The notes under the pieces are model-generated. The model saw only the letters and a program-made list of their open reading frames with translations, did not search any database and was not told where the DNA came from. Of a stretch of DNA of 64,000 nt, positions 29,624 to 41,598 are shown piece after piece. Source of the DNA: Methylotenera versatilis 301. Its GTDB lineage: Bacteria; Pseudomonadota; Gammaproteobacteria; Burkholderiales; Methylophilaceae. A program made the position numbers and the translations under genes. Position 1 is the stretch's first letter. The number at the start of each line of letters is the position of its first letter. The DNA lies in NCBI RefSeq assembly GCF_000093025.1, contig NC_014207.1, forward strand, positions 2,728,001 to 2,792,000. The letters run 5' to 3'.

Positions 29624-30022
29624 CTATTTCGCTGGCGCTAACAACAGCCCAACTTTATCCACTTTGTTCTGTTTGAGTAAATCCATCACGCCAATCACAT
29701 CGTCATATTTAACATTTTTATCTGCGGCAATCACCACAGAGCGTTCTGGCGATTTTGTAAGCGCTTGGCGCACAGCTAACAGCAGCTCATCGCGCGGCAT
29801 AGGCTTATTCTCGAACTCTATTTTGTGATTGAGTTTAACCGTGAGTACCAAAGGTGGCACTTGCGGTTGCTTTAAAGCCTGACCAACTTTAGGCAAATCA
29901 ACCACGCCAGGATTAGTCATAGGTGCGGTCACCATAAAGATAACTAACAGCACCAAAGTCACGTCAATGTACGGCACTACATTGATTTGATTCATCACGC
30001 GACGTTTGCGAGTACGCGCCAT
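29624..30022 (-). CDS. tolR: Tol-Pal system protein TolR
   Basis: This 132-aa ExbD/TolR family protein has a single N-terminal TM with the conserved Asp in NVVPYIDVTLVLLVIFMVTAP that takes part in proton use. It forms the TolQR motor. The gene starts 3 bp after the tolQ stop codon, in the tol operon. It is not the ExbD of the iron locus at 47158-47580. Confidence 0.94.
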   Translation of the reverse strand: MARTRKRRVMNQINVVPYIDVTLVLLVIFMVTAPMTNPGVVDLPKVGQALKQPQVPPLVLTVKLNHKIEFENKPMPRDELLLAVRQALTKSPERSVVIAADKNVKYDDVIGVMDLLKQNKVDKVGLLLAPAK

Positions 30023-30025
30023 GAT

Positions 30026-30706
30026 TTAGCTCTTTCTTTGCAGAATATTAGTGAACTCTTCCATAAAGCTTTCGTAGCGCACTGAAAGCCTATCGACTGA
30101 ACTGGCAAAACGGTTATAGGCAATGACGGCTGGAATCGCTGCAAACAGGCCTATTGCGGTTGCTACCAAAGCCTCTGCAATGCCAGGAGCGACTTGGCTA
30201 AGGGTTGCTTGCGCCACATTAGACAAACCTCGAAACGCATTCATAATGCCCCACACTGTGCCAAATAAGCCGATATATGGACTCACAGAGCCAACTGAGG
30301 CTAGAAACGGTAGATGTGCATCCAGATCATCTAACTCACGGTTGTAGGCTGCGCGCATCGCGCGACGTGAGCCTTCCATCACATCAGAAACATCCATTGT
30401 CGTTTGTTGTTTGTGACGTACATACTCTCTAAAACCCGCTTCAAATATACTCGCCATACCTTGTGGTTTACGACGACTTGAGGCGAGTCCTTCGAACAGC
30501 TTATTCAAATCGCCACCTGACCAAAATGCTTTTTCAAAGTCTTCCGCATTAGTCTCAGCTTTTTTAATCGTTGCCAGCTTGATGAAAATATACCACCAAG
30601 AAAATAGTGAGGTGCCTATTAACACCAGAAGCACCATCTGCACAGGCAGGCTGGCGCCAGCCACTAGCGAAAAAATAGACATATCATTGGCCGCGCTTAT
30701 ACTCAT
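30026..30706 (-). CDS. tolQ: Tol-Pal system protein TolQ
   Basis: This 226-aa inner-membrane protein with three TM helices has the MotA/TolQ/ExbB core: FLASVGSVSPYIGLFGTVWGIMNAF and TLSQVAPGIAEALVATAIGLFAAIPAVIAYN. With TolR it forms the proton channel of the Tol system. Its ATG overlaps the ybgC stop by 4 bp. Confidence 0.95.
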   Translation of the reverse strand: MSISAANDMSIFSLVAGASLPVQMVLLVLIGTSLFSWWYIFIKLATIKKAETNAEDFEKAFWSGGDLNKLFEGLASSRRKPQGMASIFEAGFREYVRHKQQTTMDVSDVMEGSRRAMRAAYNRELDDLDAHLPFLASVGSVSPYIGLFGTVWGIMNAFRGLSNVAQATLSQVAPGIAEALVATAIGLFAAIPAVIAYNRFASSVDRLSVRYESFMEEFTNILQRKS

Positions 30707-31140
30707 AACTTCTCCACATTTAAACTCATTGCTTGTATGTTAATCATGTCTTGCTTCATAGCAGTAGGAATGGCTACTGGACGAAAAGTTTCAGCTTCGA
30801 CAAATGCCGCTTTAACATGTGCCTGAATCAATTCGACGCCATTGCATATAATCGTTTGCGCCATTTCTATGCTGCCACGCCCGACATTTGCCAACTCGCA
30901 ACGCACTTCAAGCATGTCATTAAACCTTGCAGGCTTCTTGAAATTAATCGATAGGCTATGCACCACAATAATGACGCCTAGCTCATCTTTAACCACAGTT
31001 TGCTCGTAACCTAAATCGCGTAGCCATTCGGTGCGAGCACGCTCCATAAAGTTCAAATAATTCGAGTGGTAAACCACGCCGCCGGCATCGGTATCTTCGT
31101 AGTACACACGGACTGGCCAACTAAATCGATGACTACTCAT
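30703..31140 (-). CDS. ybgC: acyl-CoA thioesterase YbgC
   Basis: This 145-aa hotdog-fold thioesterase has YYEDTDAGGVVYHSNYLNFMERARTEWL with the catalytic Asp in the usual place and the conserved NFKKPARFNDMLEV segment. It is the standard first gene of the tol-pal operon. I place the start at ATG 31140 (AAGAG 5 nt upstream), after the ruvB stop; a GTG at 31155 would overlap ruvB. Confidence 0.93.
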   Translation of the reverse strand: MSSHRFSWPVRVYYEDTDAGGVVYHSNYLNFMERARTEWLRDLGYEQTVVKDELGVIIVVHSLSINFKKPARFNDMLEVRCELANVGRGSIEMAQTIICNGVELIQAHVKAAFVEAETFRPVAIPTAMKQDMINIQAMSLNVEKL

Positions 31141-31142
31141 AT

Positions 31143-32177
31143 TTACTCTTGCCACGTTTCACCACTTAAATGCTTGGGCATGGGCAATTCAAAATGCTGA
31201 TAGGCTTGCAGTGTGGCTATGCGCCCACGTGGGGTGCGCATTAAATAGCCCTGTTGAATCAAATAAGGCTCAAGCACATCTTCAATCGTATCGCGCTCTT
31301 CGCCTATGGCTGCGGCTAGATTATCCAGACCTACAGGACCGCCGCCGAATTTTTCTATCACGGCGAGCAACAGTTTTCTATCCATCACATCAAAGCCCAA
31401 TTTATCGACATCGAGCATTTTCAACGCAGCATCAGCGATTTCTGATGACACAATGCCATTGGCTTTTACTTGCGCGTAATCACGCACACGGCGTAGCAGC
31501 CTATTAGCGATACGAGGCGTGCCGCGTGAACGTCGTGCAATTTCGAGCGAGCCTGTATCCGCCATTTCGACTTCTAATAGACCCGCTGAGCGATGAACAA
31601 TTCGAGCCAACTCCTCAGAGGTATAAAACTCTAACCTTGAAACAATCCCAAAGCGGTCACGCAATGGGTTAGTCAGCATACCAGCACGAGTCGTCGCGCC
31701 TATCAAGGTAAATGGAGGCAAATCAAGCCGCACACTGCGCGCGGCTGGACCTTCGCCTATCATGATGTCTAGTCGATAATCTTCCATCGCTGGATATAAA
31801 ATCTCTTCAACCACGGGAGATAGTCGGTGAATCTCATCAATGAACAATACATCATTAGGTTCTAAATTAGTCAGCAAGGCAGCCAAGTCACCCGCGCGCT
31901 CTAACACTGGACCTGAAGTTTGGCGCATATTCACGCCCATTTCTTTGGCAATGATATGTGCCAAAGTGGTTTTACCTAAGCCTGGTGGGCCAAATAACAG
32001 TACGTGATCTAGTGCTTCGCTGCGACCACGGGCGGCATTAATAAATATCTCTAATTGGCTACGTGCTTTTTCTTGCCCGACATACTCGTCTAAAAGCTTG
32101 GGGCGCAAAGCACGCTCTAATGCCTCCTCACGAGGGCTTTCAGCATCTGGGGCAATCAGGCGGTCAGTTTCTATCAT
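31143..32177 (-). CDS. ruvB: Holliday junction branch migration helicase RuvB
   Basis: This 344-aa AAA+ motor has Walker [13 protein letters not shown] near residue 62, Walker [12 protein letters not shown] near residue 112, sensor [11 protein letters not shown], and a C-terminal winged helix ([13 protein letters not shown]). It drives branch migration with RuvA. Here it heads the ruvB-ybgC-tol block, while ruvC-ruvA lie about 7.4 kb away (39582-40801), separated by five unrelated genes on the same strand. Confidence 0.97.
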
Positions 32178-32194
32178 AAGTTCATCTTGTTTTT

Positions 32195-32239
32195 GGGTTT
32201 TGGTGCTCTGGGTTTTGGTGCTCTGGGTTTTAGTGCCAA
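32195..32239. repeat. 15-bp tandem repeat, 3 copies, upstream of ruvB
   Basis: GGGTTTTGGTGCTCT occurs at 32195-32209 and 32210-32224, with a degenerate third copy at 32225-32239. It lies in the 86-bp gap between the GGDEF/EAL gene and ruvB, just before the ruvB start on the minus strand. Confidence 0.85.
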
Positions 32240-32263
32240 GGCGCCATTAAAACACGTGCCTAT

Positions 32264-34381
32264 CTATTGTGCATGCAATTTTGCATAGCGCTCAATCAAT
32301 CCTTTGACGGTCACAGGAGCACCTAAATACAGACCTTGCCCATAGTGTACGCCTATGCTTTTCAATTCACTTAATATCTCTTCATTTTCGACAAATTCAG
32401 CCACCGTTTTAATACTCATGGCCTCTGCTACACTATGAATCGAGCGCACCATTGCATGGTCAATTTTATTAATATGCATTTCTTTAACAAAAGTACCATC
32501 AATCTTCAAATAATCCACGTCAAAATTTTTCAAATAAGTAAATGATGACATGCCACTGCCAAAATCATCTAGCGCGAAACTACAGCCTAGTTTTCGCAAG
32601 GCACTGAATAACAAAATAGTATTTTTAAGATTAACAATTGCCGCCGTTTCAGTGATTTCAAAACAGATAGATTGAGGTGGAATTGAATACTTGATAAACA
32701 TATCTTGTATAAAACTTAGTAAGCTTTTATCACCTAATGAGGTGCCAGATAAGTTGATTGAAAATATATAGTTACACTTTTCGGCATTAATCTCCAACAA
32801 CTTTTGGTAAGCTAAGAAAACATTTTTAATAACCCATCTATCGATATTTGGCATCAAATGATACCGCTCGGCAGACGGTATAAATGTGGTTGGCAGAATT
32901 ATTTTGCCATCGAGATCAATTTTTCTAAGCAAAATTTCATAATGTTGCAATTGTGTCGTCGCAGAGGTGAGTGGCACAATTGGCTGACAATAGAGCATAA
33001 ATTGCTCATCATCAATTTCGTCGGTAATATCTGATATTGATTCCACTGCACTACGCTGGCGAACCACTTCCACATCACCTGGATTAAACAGAAAGCTCTG
33101 ATTTCGCCCAGCTGATTTTGCTGAATAACAGGCCAAATCAGCTGCATGAATAATCTCACTCACATTTTCGAAGCCTTGATTAATCACAACCAAACCAATA
33201 CTGACGCCAATATTAAAAATCTTATCATCGTGAATAAAACGATAATCCCGGATAGTTTTCAACAAAGCATTATTGATTTGATTCGCATCTGTCAAAGTAC
33301 AGTTTTCTAGTAGTAAACCAAACTCATCACCACCTAAGCGCGCCAATGTGTCTCTCTCTCGCATTTTATTTGCTAATAAAATGCTCACTTGCTTAAGTAA
33401 CTCATCACCTGCGGAATGCCCGCAAGTATCATTCACTAATTTAAACTGGTCTAAATCTAAAAAGCAAAAAATATGTTGTGCATTATTTTCATGCACGCTT
33501 TTTAGACAGCGTTCTAAGCGCACTTCAAACTCACGGCGATTAATTAAACCGGTTAAATCATCATGTTGCGCTTGATGGCGCAGCATTGAGGTAGCGTCAT
33601 TGATCTTTTCTTGCATACCGTCATAAGCATGCTTCAGACTACTAGACATGGAATTAAAACCTTTTTGCAAGGTTTTTAGCTCACCACTGGAGTTCTCCAT
33701 AATCGTATGTGAAAACACACCTTCACCAATACGATTAACCGCCTGCGCAATCTCTTGAATAGGTTTGGTGATATTTCTACCAAGCTTCCATGCCAGTAAC
33801 CCGCTTAAAGCCAAGCCGAAAATAGCCGTCAAGAAAATCTTTACAATTAAATCTTGCTTAATATTTTGTAAAGTTTGATTACTAAGCTCTATATACACCT
33901 GACCAATTTTCTCTGGGGTGTAAGATTTTTTCAGTTCTAACTCTTTGCTGCTTAGATTAGAAAAATCATCTATTTCAACCAGACTTCGGTAAATAGGAAA
34001 CGTAAAAATAATGCCTTTATCTTGTGGGATTTGCTCGAGATTTTCTTTAGCAATCTCAGCAATTAACGCTTTGGGTAATTCACGGCCACTTAATGCCAGC
34101 GTCAAGCCATGGCTATCGACTACCATCACCGTTCTTAAGTCCTGCTCATTAGACAGCGCTTGCTGTACCAACCTTTGCAGCACCTGACTATTGCCAGAAA
34201 TCACACCATATTCTGCTGCGGGAGCCAACTGTGAAGCAATCACCCTGCCTCGATCTTCAAGTGATTGATCTAACACTCCAAAAATATTGGTGATTGCATA
34301 TCCAACTAAAATAATAGCGAATAGCAAAGCAGGGATCGTACCCAAAAATATAACACGTGATTTGATGCCGAGATTCTTCAT
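32264..34381 (-). CDS. membrane GGDEF/EAL (c-di-GMP) signalling protein with HAMP
   Basis: This protein of 705 aa has a TM helix near residues 8-30, a periplasmic sensor of about 150 residues, a second TM (IFLTAIFGLALSGLLAW), a HAMP domain, a GGDEF domain with an intact RLGGDEFG motif, and an EAL domain in which the signature reads E-I-L (YEILLR) with downstream NLSG, EITE and DDFGSG motifs conserved. Both cyclase and phosphodiesterase activities are thus possible. I place the start at ATG 34381, 1 nt past the stop of the substrate-binding protein gene, so translation is coupled. The periplasmic domain probably senses the partner binding protein; this is inference. Confidence 0.9.
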   Translation of the reverse strand: MKNLGIKSRVIFLGTIPALLFAIILVGYAITNIFGVLDQSLEDRGRVIASQLAPAAEYGVISGNSQVLQRLVQQALSNEQDLRTVMVVDSHGLTLALSGRELPKALIAEIAKENLEQIPQDKGIIFTFPIYRSLVEIDDFSNLSSKELELKKSYTPEKIGQVYIELSNQTLQNIKQDLIVKIFLTAIFGLALSGLLAWKLGRNITKPIQEIAQAVNRIGEGVFSHTIMENSSGELKTLQKGFNSMSSSLKHAYDGMQEKINDATSMLRHQAQHDDLTGLINRREFEVRLERCLKSVHENNAQHIFCFLDLDQFKLVNDTCGHSAGDELLKQVSILLANKMRERDTLARLGGDEFGLLLENCTLTDANQINNALLKTIRDYRFIHDDKIFNIGVSIGLVVINQGFENVSEIIHAADLACYSAKSAGRNQSFLFNPGDVEVVRQRSAVESISDITDEIDDEQFMLYCQPIVPLTSATTQLQHYEILLRKIDLDGKIILPTTFIPSAERYHLMPNIDRWVIKNVFLAYQKLLEINAEKCNYIFSINLSGTSLGDKSLLSFIQDMFIKYSIPPQSICFEITETAAIVNLKNTILLFSALRKLGCSFALDDFGSGMSSFTYLKNFDVDYLKIDGTFVKEMHINKIDHAMVRSIHSVAEAMSIKTVAEFVENEEILSELKSIGVHYGQGLYLGAPVTVKGLIERYAKLHAQ

Positions 34382-34382
34382 T

Positions 34383-35351
34383 TTACATAGCCTCTGGTAC
34401 GTCAGACTCAAGCATTTTCTTTAAAATCTCATCTTCATCCATTAAAGGAATATTAAGTGAGCGCGCGACTTGGTAGTTCAACATAATAGAGAAATATTTT
34501 GGCAATTGCGGCGGTGGCAATTCGCTAGGGGCTGGACGCGATTTAATCGCAATTTCTGCTGCCTGTTTTGCCAGCTGTTTGCTTGTGCTAAATACCGCAG
34601 CTAAAGCGCCGGCACGCACATAGGATTGAGAATATCCAAAAATAGGTTTTTGATAGCGATAGCTGGTTAACAAAATAGGCTGTGCCGTTTCACGGCTATA
34701 AATAGTTGGGTCGGGAATCGCTAAAATAGCATCGACGCTATCCAAGAGTTTTTTTAATTGAGGAATCAAGTCAGCTTCTTGATTAACTTTCTCTTCCAGA
34801 ATACTTAGCCCACGTTTTTCACCCTCTTCTCGCACATACTCAATATATTGTGCAGAAGTCGTGCCTAGTAAAACGCCTATTTTTTGTGCTTCGGGTAAAA
34901 CATATTTAATCAGAGATATTTGTCGCGAAAAAGGTTGATCTAAGACAATGGCACTAAAGTTACCTAAATCACGTCGACTTTTCGCCATCACACTATTGAA
35001 CGCGGGTAATGGCGTAAACACCCCTAACACCGGTGTTGTCCGTTTTAATTTACTGGCAGCCTCCAGCGCTTTTACGCCTAGCGCAATCACTAACTCACTG
35101 TTTTCTGCTACCACCAATTTTTCGGTATCTGGCAGTGTAATCACATTCACTCTAAGATTAATTTGCTTATTCTTGGCAAGCTCGGCATTGAATTGATCAA
35201 CAAATTCAAGGTTTGCTGGCGTTTGTACGCTCATCACAATCGTCACACCTGTATAAGCATTCGCAACAAATGGTACAAGAAGCCCCAGTACTAGCATTAC
35301 GCCTGCAAGTACACCATTCATCCAGATTTTTCTATTTAGCATCAATAACAA
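34383..35351 (-). CDS. periplasmic ABC-type substrate-binding protein (sensor accessory)
   Basis: This 322-aa protein has a signal peptide (VLGLLVPFVANAY) and an architecture resembling ABC substrate-binding proteins of the BMP/PnrA-like or ABC_sub_bind type: SELVIALGVKALEAASKLKRTTPVLGVF and KIGVLLGTTSAQYIEYVREEGEKRGL. No ABC permease or ATPase is nearby. Instead it lies between a TonB receptor and a GGDEF/EAL gene, so it more likely feeds ligand occupancy to the signalling protein than to a transporter. The ligand is unknown. Confidence 0.8.
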   Translation of the reverse strand: MLLMLNRKIWMNGVLAGVMLVLGLLVPFVANAYTGVTIVMSVQTPANLEFVDQFNAELAKNKQINLRVNVITLPDTEKLVVAENSELVIALGVKALEAASKLKRTTPVLGVFTPLPAFNSVMAKSRRDLGNFSAIVLDQPFSRQISLIKYVLPEAQKIGVLLGTTSAQYIEYVREEGEKRGLSILEEKVNQEADLIPQLKKLLDSVDAILAIPDPTIYSRETAQPILLTSYRYQKPIFGYSQSYVRAGALAAVFSTSKQLAKQAAEIAIKSRPAPSELPPPQLPKYFSIMLNYQVARSLNIPLMDEDEILKKMLESDVPEAM

Positions 35352-35390
35352 AACTTATTTCTCAACCATTCAATTCATTATTAAATTGCA

Positions 35391-37439
35391 TTAAAAATCC
35401 AACCTAACATTAAGACGAGCGCGGCGCTTGAGCGTGTTGTAATCTGCAAATTCTTGATAATGTTCGTTAAACAAGTTTTCAACGACAGCAGAAACTTCTC
35501 CGCTAATATGTTCCGCTTTAAACTTACGTGCCACTCGAATATCAGATCTTCTCGCTAAACCAACATAGCCGCCATCCCCCAAAGCGGTAACCTCACTGGT
35601 TTGATAATAGGCGTAACTGGCATCCCATTGCGGGTTGAAACGGTGAGTTAACAACCCGCTAAAAGTGCTGCTTGGCATAGACGTAGTAATGTTATTTGCA
35701 GTTTGCTGTTCGTCAGCATCAATGTTCACATAGGCGTAATTTAGTAATAAACGGTCATCATTAGTAATCCGCCATTTGACTTGTGTTTCAAAGCCACTTA
35801 CGTTGACGTTACCCGCATTTGTATAAAATGTAGGTTGTTTTATCAATACATATCCTGATGGTGTAAGCGAACCTATATTGAGACTTCTATCAAGATTAGA
35901 TTTAATATAGTCATGAATATCATCATAGAAGACCCGAGCATCCAAGCTAAGTTTACCAAAATCACCTAAATAGCCAATTTCTCTAGAAACTATTCGTTCT
36001 GGCTTAAGGTTTGCACTATCTGCAAAATATTCTGCGATATACGGCGCAGTATTTAATCTAGGGACAATAATATTAGTATTGAATTTTTCCTCTAAATAAT
36101 TAGGTGTTCTTAACGCAGTTGAAATACCAAATCGGACGGTTTGATTCGCATTGAGTTTGAAATTAACACTAGCACGAGGTGAGGTATTCGTGCCTGTAAA
36201 GCTGTTGTTCTCGACCATAGCTCCTAAATTTAACACTACATGATCTGATGGACGCCACTCAGCATGACCAAACAATCTTTGCAAATTAAATGTGTCCGTA
36301 TTGTGCGTACCAAGATAATAAGGCGAGTACATTGTATCTTGACGAACGCTGGCTCCCCAAACGCCTCTTAAAGATGAAGAGATAGAAAAGTTGTGCTGCG
36401 CCTCAAGGTCGTAACGCTCCATTTCAATATTATTGTCAATTTGTATAAAGCTTGGAGAAGCAAGATGAGTGAAAAATGGAAAACTACTTAGATCAACACT
36501 ATTGATAACATCATCAGAAGTATTTAATGAGTGATAAGCTTGTAGTGAAAAGTCACTATTGTCATTTACGTTATGTCGCCAGCGAATTAATTCATAATTA
36601 TTTTCGATGCCTCTTAATCTAGGCTGAAAAAAACGGATTGTATTAAGTGACTGGTCATCTTCGCGATCACCATTGACTAGCCCAAACTCGAACTCAAGAT
36701 TATTTTTATCATTCACCTTATAATCCATCTGTGTATTTAACAAGCGTGTACGCTTAAAATCATATCGATTATCCAATCCATCGTCATCGCGATAGCCCGC
36801 AGTCACCCTATAACTTAAATCATTTTGCTTAGCGCCATATCGTGCAAACGCCTCATGACGACCATCACCATAGGTTGCACTTACGCTAGTACCAAGCTGA
36901 TCTAATGGGCTTTGCGTGATGATATTAATCACGCCAAAAAAAGAATTGGCACCATAACTCGCGGCATTTGGACCACGCGTGATTTCAATGCGATCAATAT
37001 CAGCTATCGCAATAGGCAACTCACTCCACTGCACACCTCCATAAAGGGGACTGTAGACCGACCGACCATTCACCAGCACTTGCATAGAGCCTGCATAAGC
37101 AGTCGTCATGCCGTGGTAACTGACAGCATGATTGGTGTTATGTACGAACCCTGCATTGGTACCCACATAAAAACCTGGTACTAAACGAAATATTTCTGGA
37201 AGATCAACAATTCCAGATGCGCGTATGGTTTCACGGTCTATTACCGTAACGGCCGAGGGTGCATCAGCGATGGACTGTGACAACCTAGATACCGTAAGCA
37301 CTCTAGGCACCTCACCCATATAGTCATCTTCAGAGACCTCATTGATCGGCTTTTCTTCAGCAGCTAAAACTGGGCTAAAGCTTAAAAAAACTACAAAACT
37401 CAATGTAAAAAAACTTCTATTAATCACGTTATTAATCAT
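35391..37439 (-). CDS. TonB-dependent receptor of the sensory module
   Basis: This 682-aa outer-membrane protein has a signal peptide ending near VLAAE, a plug domain (RLSQSIADAPSAVTVIDRETI, about residues 50-70; IEITRGPNAASYGANSFFGVINIIT, about 150-175) and a 22-stranded-type barrel ending RRARLNVRLDF with a terminal Phe. The ligand is unknown; the plug is of the general (non-siderophore-specific) type. It precedes the substrate-binding protein by 39 bp in the same transcript. No Fur box is seen nearby, unlike the receptor at 44830. Confidence 0.9.
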   Translation of the reverse strand: MINNVINRSFFTLSFVVFLSFSPVLAAEEKPINEVSEDDYMGEVPRVLTVSRLSQSIADAPSAVTVIDRETIRASGIVDLPEIFRLVPGFYVGTNAGFVHNTNHAVSYHGMTTAYAGSMQVLVNGRSVYSPLYGGVQWSELPIAIADIDRIEITRGPNAASYGANSFFGVINIITQSPLDQLGTSVSATYGDGRHEAFARYGAKQNDLSYRVTAGYRDDDGLDNRYDFKRTRLLNTQMDYKVNDKNNLEFEFGLVNGDREDDQSLNTIRFFQPRLRGIENNYELIRWRHNVNDNSDFSLQAYHSLNTSDDVINSVDLSSFPFFTHLASPSFIQIDNNIEMERYDLEAQHNFSISSSLRGVWGASVRQDTMYSPYYLGTHNTDTFNLQRLFGHAEWRPSDHVVLNLGAMVENNSFTGTNTSPRASVNFKLNANQTVRFGISTALRTPNYLEEKFNTNIIVPRLNTAPYIAEYFADSANLKPERIVSREIGYLGDFGKLSLDARVFYDDIHDYIKSNLDRSLNIGSLTPSGYVLIKQPTFYTNAGNVNVSGFETQVKWRITNDDRLLLNYAYVNIDADEQQTANNITTSMPSSTFSGLLTHRFNPQWDASYAYYQTSEVTALGDGGYVGLARRSDIRVARKFKAEHISGEVSAVVENLFNEHYQEFADYNTLKRRARLNVRLDF

Positions 37440-37490
37440 TAGTTCCCCCTAATTTTTAATAAACACCAGCATAAATAATACGATTCTTCA

Positions 37491-38549
37491 TCATTCTGGA
37501 GTCTCCAGCAGCTTCTTATTTTGCAAGGCCATCCAATGCAGCATGAGCGTAAAACCTACAGCGAGCAACGTTGGTCCAAGAAAAATACCAATAAATCCAA
37601 AAGTTAAAGCGCCACCAAGCACGCCAAACACAATCAGTAATAAGGGCAGGTGTGAAGAGTGGCTAATGAGTATTGGCTTAACTACATTATCTACGGTGCT
37701 GATAGCTAGTAAACCATATAGTGCTAAAAATATTGCCCAGCCATGTTCGCCCTGGCTATAAAGCCAAAAGGATGCGCCTCCCCAAATTAAAGGTGGGCCA
37801 ACAGGGATAACAGACAAAAAGAATGTTGCACACGCTAGTAACAACGGCGCTGGTGCTCCTGCAAGTAAAAATCCGATCATCGCTACGACTGATTGTGCTA
37901 AAGCGGTGCCAAATATCCCTAGCATGACGCCCTTCACGGTATTGCATGAAAGAATAAGCATCTCCTCACCAAGCTCGCCACCTAGCCTGCGCACGATGGT
38001 AACAAGCCCTTGAGCTATTCTAGTGCCATCGCGGTAGAAGAAGAATGCCACAAAAACGACTAGAAGCAATTGTAGAAAGCCACCCGCCACTAATTGCACC
38101 GCACGTAAAGCAAAAGTGCGCATAGGTTCATAATACTGCCGTAAGAGCTTCATCAGCTCTTCTTGACTGGCCGTGGCACGCTCCCATGAATGACTAATTT
38201 GCTCGCCAACAATGGGTAGGTTACGCACCCAATCAGGCACTTTTGGCTGTAAGCTTTGCAATCTAGTACCCAGCTCATTAAATAACTGATCTGATGAGTC
38301 AGCCAAATTCATAGCAAGATATGCCATAGGTAGAATCAAGGCGATCAGCAGTAGCAAGGTCATAATCATGGCTGCCCATGTATCTCGCTTGCCTAAGCGC
38401 AACCACAATCGATGATAAAGCGGCCAAGTAAATAAACAAAATATGGCGGCGAATAAAGCCGCTGCCATAAAAGGCTGCAATACATAAATGCAGCCTATCA
38501 CCAACAAAGTGATGATTGCGATTCGTGTGACTTGGTTGGTATTGATCAT
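37491..38549 (-). CDS. AI-2E transporter family permease (YdiK-like)
   Basis: This 352-aa integral membrane protein has about eight TM helices and the family features: N-terminal pair of TMs, large loop (RLQSLQPKVPDWVRNLPIVGEQISHSWERA) around residues 95-125, and C-terminal GPTLLAVGFTLMLH. The family was named after TqsA; substrates vary and are mostly unknown. It lies 51 bp before the TonB receptor on the same strand. Confidence 0.88.
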   Translation of the reverse strand: MINTNQVTRIAIITLLVIGCIYVLQPFMAAALFAAIFCLFTWPLYHRLWLRLGKRDTWAAMIMTLLLLIALILPMAYLAMNLADSSDQLFNELGTRLQSLQPKVPDWVRNLPIVGEQISHSWERATASQEELMKLLRQYYEPMRTFALRAVQLVAGGFLQLLLVVFVAFFFYRDGTRIAQGLVTIVRRLGGELGEEMLILSCNTVKGVMLGIFGTALAQSVVAMIGFLLAGAPAPLLLACATFFLSVIPVGPPLIWGGASFWLYSQGEHGWAIFLALYGLLAISTVDNVVKPILISHSSHLPLLLIVFGVLGGALTFGFIGIFLGPTLLAVGFTLMLHWMALQNKKLLETPE

Positions 38550-38615
38550 TGAGGTCTTGCCTTAAATTTAACATTCAATTACTCGGCTGCCAAAGTCTCG
38601 CAGACTTACTTCGAA

Positions 38616-39521
38616 CTACTTGCTTTGCCATCTCGCTTTAATTTTAGTCCACAATTTGCGCGCTAAAATTAGCATAGGAATGCTAAATAACAACCACGGC
38701 AATATCGTTACAAAGAACGTAATTACAGCTGCCAAGCTTTCCATCATCACATGTCCAGCCTCTTTAAGCGCATGTGCAACAGGTGAGAAGAAGCCTTGCT
38801 CGGTAATGCCTTGTTTGGCAGTAAAATCAATATTCACCGAGACCAATTCGGTTTCTTGCGCCAATACTTTTCGCACGCCTTGAATGGTATCAAGCTGGCT
38901 TTGCGTATCCACCAACTCACGCTGCACTTCAATTAGATCTTTAAATTTAGCGGATTTATCTGTCAGCATTGCGCGTAAACTATCGCGGAACTCCGTCAGG
39001 TTTTTAATGCGCGCCTCTGCATCTATCACAGCATCCGTTTTATCTTCACTATCTTGGCGGTGTTGCAACACTTCTGCATTTTTTGCTAAACCCGAAAGAA
39101 ATATCTCAACTGACCTAGGCGGTACACGTACGGATAAACTCGCAGAAGGCGGGCTATATGGTGTTTCACGATTATAATTTGCACTCAGAATTTGGCATTT
39201 TAACAGCTCACAATGCGCGACTGTCGCATCAAATGCCGCCTGCATTTTTTCGCCCTCAGTTTCAACCGTCAGTGCGTGGCGCAATGCGATATAGCGTTTT
39301 ACTGTTGAGCTAGCGGCATTTGGCTCGCTCACTTCAGTCAGCGACTCTTCACCTCCGCCTGTGCTATCCGCCATTTTGGCTCTTGCCATATCTGGCGCGG
39401 GTGCTGACTTCATCGCCACACTTGCCGCGGGCATGGCTTCTGTTGCACGATCATTATGTTGCCCACAAGCCACGAGTATCGACACCGCAGCAATCAAAAA
39501 CAATTTACTCAAAATATTCAT
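38616..39521 (-). CDS. DUF4349 lipoprotein
   Basis: This 301-aa protein has lipobox LVAC with Cys19. The middle is a DUF4349-type domain with a coiled coil (IKNLTEFRDSLRAMLTDKSAKFKDLIEVQRELVDTQSQ is the heptad region, about residues 175-212) and the C-terminal region has one TM helix (about 265-290) and a basic tail. The family is uncharacterised. It is 66 bp upstream of the AI-2E permease on the same strand and about 60 bp after ruvA. Confidence 0.85.
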   Translation of the reverse strand: MNILSKLFLIAAVSILVACGQHNDRATEAMPAASVAMKSAPAPDMARAKMADSTGGGEESLTEVSEPNAASSTVKRYIALRHALTVETEGEKMQAAFDATVAHCELLKCQILSANYNRETPYSPPSASLSVRVPPRSVEIFLSGLAKNAEVLQHRQDSEDKTDAVIDAEARIKNLTEFRDSLRAMLTDKSAKFKDLIEVQRELVDTQSQLDTIQGVRKVLAQETELVSVNIDFTAKQGITEQGFFSPVAHALKEAGHVMMESLAAVITFFVTILPWLLFSIPMLILARKLWTKIKARWQSK

Positions 39522-39581
39522 AATGTCTCCGATGCTGGATTAATGCTTAGGCTCATTCACTGAGCTTCACATCAACCAGTC

Positions 39582-40160
39582 CTATTTAGATAACGATTTC
39601 AACGCTAATTTAATGCCTTCTGCTACAGTCGCATCTGCAGGCAACAGCTTCACAGCGGCCAAGGCTTCGCGCTCATTGTAGCCCAATGAAATCAGGGCAT
39701 TCAGCACATCACTACTAGCTGATTTTGGCTGATTGCTATTGCTTGGGCTTAATCCAGCAACCGTAAATTTATCCTTTAACTCTAATAATAAACGCTCGGC
39801 TGTTTTCTTGCCCACGCCCGGCACGCGTGTAAGCATGGCTGTATCCTGCATGGCAACAGCCTGCACTAAATCATCAATCGACAAACCGCTTAAAATTGAA
39901 AGTGCTGACTTAGCTCCGATGCCATTCACTTTAAGCAACTGCCTGAAGGTCGCACGCTCTTGGTCGCTGCCAAAACCATACAAAAGCTGTGCATCTTCAC
40001 GCACTACAAAATGTGTGAGCATCACCACTTTTTCACCAATGGCGGGTAGATTATAAAATGTACTCATCGGCACTTCACATTCATAGCCCACGCCATTGCA
40101 ATCAATGAGCACCAACGGCGGTGTTTTTTCCAGCAAAATCCCGTTCAATCTTCCTATCAT
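39582..40160 (-). CDS. ruvA: Holliday junction branch migration protein RuvA
   Basis: This protein of 192 aa is RuvA, which binds four-way junctions and loads RuvB. It has the N-terminal barrel MIGRLNG...[11 protein letters not shown], two helix-hairpin-helix units ([37 protein letters not shown]) and a C-terminal RuvB-binding domain ([13 protein letters not shown]). The ATG 40160 has GGA 7 nt upstream; a TTG four codons earlier is unlikely. It follows ruvC and is followed by non-ruv genes. Confidence 0.96.
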
Positions 40161-40237
40161 GGCATCATCCAAATCATTACTAGTGTTAACAACTGTATAT
40201 TTTTAAAACTATGTATGTTCAAAAAAGAAAAGCATCA

Positions 40238-40801
40238 TCAAACCAACCTTCCGCCACGTACTCGATAGCCAGCGGTAGCAAGCTTGCCCAATCCTTGTCC
40301 GCCATGCGCATGGCAAATGGCACAAGCCAAGGCATCGGCTGAATCTGGTTTAGGTGTTGCGGGTAAGTTGAGTAAGCGTTTTACCATTTCTTGCACTTGT
40401 TCTTTTTGTGCATGGCCGTTGCCGACTACGGCTTGTTTGACTTGTAGCGCCGTATACTCGGCTACAGATAAATTACGAATCACCGCCGCGCTAATAGCGG
40501 CGCCACGGGCTTGACCTAATAACAGAGTGGATTGTGGATTGATATTCACAAACACCTTCTCAATCGCCACTTGGTTAGGCTGATAGGTATCAATCACCTC
40601 AAACAAACCATCTAAGATGATCTTCAAACGAGCGGGCAGCTCTTCTCTATCGTCTTCGCCTTCAACCTTATTCTTTTTGCCGCTAGCAGTTTTAATTGTG
40701 CCACTGGAGATGTAAGTGATTTTTTCACCTACTTTTTCAATAACCCCAAAGCCTGTTAAGCGCAGGCCAGGGTCGATGCCTAAGATTCTGACATTACTCA
40801 C
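40238..40801 (-). CDS. ruvC: Holliday junction resolvase RuvC
   Basis: This endonuclease resolves Holliday junctions. Catalytic acids are visible in [12 protein letters not shown] (first Asp), VAIEKVFVN (Glu) and [15 protein letters not shown] (final Asp and His). There is an unusual Lys/Glu/Asp-rich insertion ([15 protein letters not shown]) around residues 45-60 that most RuvC lack. The start is GTG 40801 or TTG 40810; neither has a strong ribosome binding site. It sits between yebC and ruvA. Confidence 0.94.
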
Positions 40802-40872
40802 AGTGCTCAAAAAAATAATCGCTTAAAGTCATACAAGGCGCGAATCAAAAAAGGCATTAGACGATTCACTTT

Positions 40873-41598
40873 TTAGTCTTCGATGACAGCGGAAGTATAG
40901 ACATCCTGCACATCGTCTAAGTCATCTAGCGCATCTAAGATTTTTTGCATTTTCACCGCATCATCACCTGTAAACACGGTTTCCATATTCGGCTTCATCG
41001 TCACTTCTGCCATCACAGCTTTTAAGCCTGCAGCTTCCATGGCTTCTTTAATCACCATAAAATCGTTTGGTGGCGTGATCACTTCAATACTGCCATCTTC
41101 ATCCGTCACCACATCTTCTGCGCCAGCTTCTAGCGCAACTTCCATGACTTTATCTTCATCAGTACCTGGCTCATAAATTAAGCTACCGCAGTGTTTGAAC
41201 ATAAACACCACACTGCCGTCTGTACCTAGATTACCACCGTGTTTGCTTAGCGCATGACGTACATCCATCACTGCACGTTGTTTGTTATCGGTTAAACAAT
41301 CAATAATAATGGCCGCGCCGTTAATGCCGTAACCTTCGTAACGGATTTCTTCGTAGTTCACGCCCTCTAATTCACCCGTACCTTTTTTAATGGCACGAAT
41401 GATATTGTCTGCCGGCATGTTCTCTTCTTTAGCTTCTGCCACCGCTGCGCGTAAACGTGGATTCATGTTCACGTCACCGCCGCTCATGCGCGCAGCCACG
41501 GTAATTTCTTTAATGATTTTAGTGAAAATTTTGCCGCGTTTTGCGTCTTGACGACCTTTGCGGTGCTGAATATTTGCCCATTTACTATGACCAGCCAT
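40873..41598 (-). CDS. yebC: YebC/PmpR family transcriptional regulator
   Basis: This 241-aa protein is YebC over its full length: [60 protein letters not shown] and the C-terminal [27 protein letters not shown]. Reported roles are in transcription regulation and, more recently, in translation of difficult motifs. Its position just upstream of ruvC is highly conserved. Confidence 0.95.

Follow-up and report, generated by a model that had tools for sequence, protein, structure and literature searches.

We analysed a 64,000-nucleotide stretch of the Methylotenera versatilis 301 genome (contig NC_014207.1, positions 2,728,001 to 2,792,000; hereafter the window, numbered from its first letter). 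Within it, three adjoining genes encode a TonB-dependent receptor (TBDR), a substrate-binding protein (SBP) of the ABC_sub_bind family, and a sensor protein with sCache_4, HAMP, GGDEF and EAL domains. A first-pass annotation, made from the sequence alone, had described these genes as one transcript with gaps of 39 bp and 1 nt, and had proposed that the receptor imports a ligand, the binding protein captures it, and the periplasmic domain of the third protein turns this into cyclic di-GMP (c-di-GMP) output. The gene identities and both gaps were confirmed, with all three genes on the same strand, and their spacing suggests a single transcript. The features of the set are the following.

35391-37439, minus strand: TBDR, 682 aa, with plug and barrel
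34383-35351, minus strand: ABC_sub_bind SBP (PF04392, 68.2 bits, above the gathering cut-off of 25.9)
32264-34381, minus strand: sCache_4-HAMP-GGDEF-EAL protein, 705 aa from the ATG at 34381
33869-34276, minus strand: periplasmic sCache_4 domain, part of an input half common to BarA
34190-34213, minus strand: EYGVISGN, residues 57-64 of the 705-aa sensor, a tentative candidate for an SBP docking patch
33632-33784, minus strand: HAMP domain
33098-33571, minus strand: GGDEF domain, with the GGDEF motif and RxxD
32315-33031, minus strand: EAL domain, whose motif reads EIL, with the other residues that we take to be catalytic

The sensor ATG, read directly, lies 1 nt past the SBP stop; the open reading frame list starts this protein at TTG 34411, which yields a 715-aa version. 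With an alternative SBP start, the ATG at 35342, the gap between TBDR and SBP widens to 48 bp. The SBP signal peptide was judged by eye. A promoter scan at the locus returned 19 matches, no excess over the 22.4 found in shuffles. The nearest NCBIfam model to the receptor, TOL_0244, scored 232.6 bits, so far under its cut-off of 645 that no ligand is inferred from it; TOL_0244 itself is described as a Thalassolituus receptor raised sevenfold on C28 alkane relative to Tween 80 (PMC6304351). Searches of the host genome (3.06 Mb; the close named relatives are Methylotenera metagenome-assembled genomes) recovered eight TBDR barrels and 46 GGDEF matches, along with one PF04392 and one sCache_4 match, the two adjoining.

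Recurrence of the gene set

An SBP profile was searched through 200 order, 369 class and 398 phylum genomes; matches came from 58, 102 (at E <= 1e-15) and 85 (at E <= 1e-12) of them, respectively. Genes were annotated with home-made hidden Markov models (HMMs) in 160 stretches drawn from the order and class results, to which the window and five Methylotenera loci were added. One of the 65 order places is the window, two share a stretch with another, and G137 and G053 were left out; one of the 120 class places is likewise the window, and 19 low-scoring places were left out. An HMM-defined sensor input domain lies directly downstream of the SBP, on the same strand, at 136 of 169 SBP places. A TBDR lies directly upstream in 96 of these 136 cassettes, and the three-gene order, which the first-pass annotation had suggested looking for in other genomes, recurs at 96 of the 169 places. 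The SBP is a transporter protein at 19 places (at 18 a permease gene follows, and one SBP stands in tandem with such a protein), and at 14 neither sensor nor transporter was called. A scripted check for SBP-sensor fusions found no other domain in the SBP's own frame at the 169 places. In the phylum search, with the window excluded, SBP and sensor were paired in 29 of 29 loci with flanks and a TBDR lay upstream in 21, four of the 29 loci repeating genomes already counted.

The association also holds when approached from the sensor. In the 369 class genomes, 69 of 111 sCache_4 matches are preceded on their own strand by an SBP, at a distance of 90-456 bp; the count in the 200 order genomes is 42 of 57. 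Both genes occur in 70 class genomes, sCache_4 only in 27, SBP only in 32 and neither in 240 (odds ratio 19.4, Fisher p 2.6e-28, the genomes not being independent of one another). Because some SBPs score under the threshold, these adjacency counts are lower bounds: at least five sensors classed as SBP-less (L238 and L287-L290) have a weak SBP. The cassette order is kept at varied chromosomal places, beside ruv, rlmD, pdxJ-recO-acpS, RNase H and exonuclease genes. Hints to the ligand were sought in the surroundings. Rfam found no riboswitch in window positions 30000-41000, its only match in ten cassette loci was a tRNA, and ten proteins scanned as recurrent neighbours were housekeeping proteins or a response regulator and gave no hint.

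Eight loci (L183, L187, L188, L190, L191, L192, L196 and L204) form a separate branch with a more distant SBP and a GGDEF-EAL sensor. No TBDR was called directly upstream in any of the eight, and the one member scanned, L196, gave no sCache_4 match. This branch is possibly a sister system.

Outputs behind the shared input

The 136 sensors comprise 81 histidine kinases (one with an added GGDEF domain), 36 GGDEF-EAL proteins, 12 GGDEF proteins and 7 for which no output was called; Pfam confirmed examples of the three called classes. A sensor tree was built from 153 input halves, 134 of them from SBP-linked sensors, 18 from SBP-less ones and one from a sensor with a weak SBP (two sensors of fewer than 180 residues were left out), and it required 12 changes among the three outputs. 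Starred branches alone forced at least seven changes for kinases and at least five for GGDEF-EAL. A trio with support 100 (L045, L046 and L050) carries a kinase, a GGDEF and a GGDEF-EAL output, each with a TBDR and an SBP, and the SBP tree gave 15 output changes. Both trees were made by a quick method and have long branches, which makes any single placement uncertain. The c-di-GMP output first proposed for the set is predicted for the window, where the sensor carries GGDEF-EAL; across cassettes it is just one among several outputs.

The catalytic motifs are well kept. GG[DE]EF was present in 49 of 49 GGDEF domains, and among 37 EAL domains the motif E, the lone E and the Q were found in 37, DDFG in 36 and the N in 35. 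The window protein matches at the residues whose GGDEF and EAL roles we presume, and with both sets of motifs present it may have both activities. Two very long cassette sensors, each behind an SBP, join kinase and receiver parts to a GGDEF domain (L200) or to GGDEF-EAL (L238).

Probable signalling route, the BarA/GacS link and competing explanations

The gene order, the output swaps, the split from transporter SBPs and the catalytic motifs are results of computation; import, ligand capture, docking and the direction of the output are inferred. The TBDR, the SBP and the sCache_4 sensor probably form one trans-envelope signalling cassette. The receptor would carry a ligand in short supply across the outer membrane, and the soluble SBP would capture it in the periplasm. 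The loaded SBP would then dock on sCache_4 in the inner-membrane sensor, and HAMP would relay the change to GGDEF-EAL, which would make or break c-di-GMP. Elsewhere the same TBDR-SBP-sCache_4-HAMP input would drive a lone GGDEF domain or histidine kinases, BarA/GacS-family phosphorelay hybrids among them.

The link to BarA/GacS rests on the input half. Residues 11-279 of the window sensor (715-aa version) match positions 1-267 of the BarA model NF008318 at 117.6 bits. The sCache_4-HAMP input half of BarA, GacS and LetS hybrid kinases (NF008318, NF045901) is present in the window protein, with GGDEF-EAL in place of their HisKA-HATPase-receiver-Hpt series; that series is found in the relatives L130 and L045. 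Cassette kinases match BarA over its full length. The L130 kinase scores 919.9 against the BarA cut-off of 890 and has the tripartite domain order, with an SBP directly upstream and no TBDR there. We searched the 369 class genomes for BarA, scoring at most two candidates per genome with E <= 1e-150 and the input half included. With all 120 class SBP places used, an SBP was found directly upstream of 38 of 67 BarA-model matches, and of two of the four matches over the NCBI cut-off.

Neither an SBP nor a TBDR was found in the stretch seen around the kinase at 18 SBP-less loci, one of them G337, whose BarA match is the best at 1183 bits; L244 was left out of this group since it has an SBP. One or more of five genes (rlmD, pdxJ, recO, acpS and one for a PolB-type exonuclease) occurred in 33 of 81 SBP-linked kinase stretches and 12 of 19 SBP-less ones (the 19 include L238, with its weak SBP), compared with none of 42 SBP-linked GGDEF stretches and one of 17 transporter stretches. 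The barA gene of Escherichia coli lies by rlmD. On the sensor tree G337 (L225) groups with the SBP-linked L130 and L175 and the SBP-less L239 (support 89), a grouping that fits SBP loss on a tree whose root was not inferred. A TBDR lies directly before the sensor in one of 16 held-out SBP-less loci, L283 (2021-4956), where a BarA-like sensor with EYGVISGN follows and no SBP was found between them; this is perhaps a recent SBP loss. We consider it possible, at somewhat less than an even chance, that TBDR and SBP were the original signal delivery of the BarA/GacS family, a TonB-fed SBP that was rewired repeatedly to c-di-GMP enzymes and lost in SBP-less branches. A 2020 review devoted to GacS calls its ligand unknown, and the main text of that review contains none of the terms TonB, solute or substrate-binding, its one "periplasmic binding protein" standing in a reference title (PMC7695008).

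A weak lead to a docking site came from residues E57, G59, V60, S62, G63, N64 and D139 of the sensor (window numbering), which are commoner in SBP-linked sensors (129 compared with 18 SBP-less); E57, for example, occurs in a fraction of 0.85 of 81 SBP-linked kinases versus 0.44 of SBP-less sensors. Since this EYGV.SGN/D139 patch was spotted after the fact, the score was fixed before new loci were tested. Held-out loci averaged 4.8 of 8 in 25 SBP-linked sensors and 3.1 of 8 in 16 SBP-less ones (one-sided p 0.03), a result flattered by the exclusion of four weak-SBP loci (scores 0-2) that had first been taken as SBP-less. Control columns averaged 6.8 and 6.7, respectively. The patch may be a putative SBP docking site.

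Several observations, that exclusion among them, weigh against the proposed route. No TBDR lies directly upstream in 40 of the 136 cassettes, including Methylotenera locus L012, where the SBP and GGDEF-EAL genes are present and a TBDR was not found; the SBP may therefore be fed otherwise. In 29 of 67 BarA-model matches the directly upstream position lacks an SBP (for two of them one lies within 6 kb), so the sensor domain may work alone. The docking score is bimodal, with 12 of 25 SBP-linked sensors at 3 or less and 4 of 16 SBP-less ones at 6-7, and structure models of the SBP and of the sensor N-half, each from six close sequences, were poor (mean pLDDT 47.6 and 52.7). Relatives vary at the second E of AE..E in the EAL domain. 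Finally, the correlation among SBP, sensor and TBDR distances (Spearman 0.70-0.75 over 87 cassettes, with none of 500 shuffles as high) carries no species control.

The SBP-less BarA-model matches favor a different explanation, in which the sCache_4 domain senses the ligand directly and the TBDR and SBP just raise or buffer periplasmic ligand, with no docking. We consider this unlikely. It is opposed by the adjoining of SBP and sensor at 136 of 169 places, by the parallel run of their distances (subject to the same want of a species control) and, weakly, by the poorer conservation of the EYGV.SGN/D139 patch in SBP-less sensors.

In a second explanation the SBP would serve an ABC transporter encoded elsewhere, with the sensor monitoring its uptake, the set being a nutrient uptake operon with its regulator. 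The SBP had been described at first as lacking a transporter, and this held: no permease gene adjoins it, the four PF02653 permease matches of the host genome lying elsewhere. An importer of the TrpXYZ type would have a permease and an ATPase gene beside the SBP; the neighbors here are the TBDR and GGDEF-EAL genes. Those four permeases leave room for an unlinked transporter, and relatives of the SBP do sit with permease and ATPase genes at 19 of 169 places, a pairing that the first-pass annotation had named as a point against its model. However, a single change on the SBP tree (one SBP of fewer than 200 residues left out) divides transporter from signalling SBPs, and the two differ at presumed pocket positions. 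The permease HMM found none beside the 136 signalling SBPs, and the host genome has its single PF04392 protein. We therefore regard an uptake operon as very improbable. Neither of the two conditions that the first-pass annotation had named as refuting, want of the trio in other genomes and pairing of the binding protein with transporters in relatives, overturned its model, which is supported in part.

The presumed pocket columns were set by placing the side-chain positions of CD0873 and VC_1101 by eye on window residues S241 and S257. At the first, 16 of 18 transporter SBPs carry D and the other two E, and 124 of 136 cassette SBPs carry S; at the second, 17 of 18 transporter SBPs carry Y and 86 of 136 cassette SBPs P. 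Window residues 138, 139, 140 and 143 are D, Q, P and R in 104, 108, 118 and 110 of 136 cassette SBPs, compared with 0, 0, 8 and 4 of 18 transporter SBPs. These 18 represent 17 places, G093 being counted twice (L103 and L194). The aromatic amino acid SBPs CD0873, VC_1101 and SP1069 (TrpX-type; PMC6816091; 3lkv, 3lft and 6hni) belong to the same family by sequence, and the cassette SBPs differ from them at both selectivity columns. CD0873 retained tyrosine through its purification (PMC6816091). At the first position the aromatic binders already known carry A or E, which leaves the ligands of the 18 transporter SBPs uncertain too. We presume that the cassettes have a ligand class of their own in common.

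That the neighborhood is conserved without functional coupling, its genes merely co-regulated or hitch-hiking, is hardly credible given that the gene order persists through output swaps and in varied chromosomal settings, indirect as gene order alone is.

Chromosomal setting and comparison with known systems

The genes flanking the cassette are as follows.

31143-32177, minus strand: ruvB, outside the module
37491-38549, minus strand: AI-2E transporter gene, between ruvA and the cassette
38616-39521, minus strand: DUF4349 gene, between ruvA and the cassette
39582-40172, minus strand: ruvA

On the minus strand the order is ruvC, ruvA, DUF4349, AI-2E transporter, TBDR, SBP, GGDEF-EAL protein and ruvB. 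The cassette does lie between ruvA and ruvB, as the first-pass annotation had it, but five genes intervene rather than three. The ruv position proved to be no part of the system: of 135 other cassette stretches, ruv genes were found in just five, which are the named Methylotenera loci with the cassette between ruvA and ruvB. The placement is incidental. When 21 genomes of the family were searched and 20 loci read around ruvA (our own included), ruvA adjoined ruvB in 14, the AI-2E gene alone separated them in three (L209, L219 and L222, of which L219 is of the same genus), the long insert was found in the host genome, and in two ruvB was not within the 1.5 kb seen around ruvA. Because three other family genomes have the AI-2E gene alone at this spot, it seems to have arrived there before the cassette. 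Short direct repeats of the aaaacccagagcacc kind were noted by eye at window positions 32191-32234, between the GGDEF-EAL stop and ruvB.

One of the nearest known systems is that of a PotD-like protein, NspS, with its receptor MbaA. This Vibrio cholerae pair likewise joins a binding protein to a receptor in the membrane, and bound norspermidine or spermidine sets whether c-di-GMP is synthesized or degraded (PMC8967002). The window also has an SBP gene beside that of a GGDEF-EAL membrane protein, but at E <= 0.01 the SBP matches PF04392 alone in Pfam, with no match to a PotD-like family, and the cassette further differs in its sCache_4 sensor domain, the TBDR in the set and the exchangeable output. 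The cassette kinases resemble LuxQ, TorS and LytS, sensor kinases that are switched on by periplasmic binding proteins with bound ligand (PMC6321045), in pairing a sensor with such a protein.

The SBP and sensor families of LuxQ, TorS and LytS are other than those of the cassette, and to our knowledge no TBDR is part of their sets. A TBDR is tied to signalling in cell-surface systems of the FecA/FpvA type. The window receptor has plug and barrel only, with no STN domain found, and a scan of the surrounding window genes found no FecR or sigma gene. Literature searches, in which few subscription journals were covered, returned no paper describing the cassette, as judged from titles and the beginnings of abstracts. 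Four features appear to be novel: the frequent presence of the TBDR in a fixed partnership, the use of sCache_4 as input, the swapping of outputs and the tie to BarA/GacS.

The three-gene set looks like a widespread, interchangeable antenna wired to different signalling outputs. It would constitute a natural input-output swap set, in which related inputs lead to a kinase, a cyclase or a cyclase-phosphodiesterase. If BarA/GacS-family sensors in many lineages bring their own SBP, their signal could be found through the cargo of the purified binding protein.

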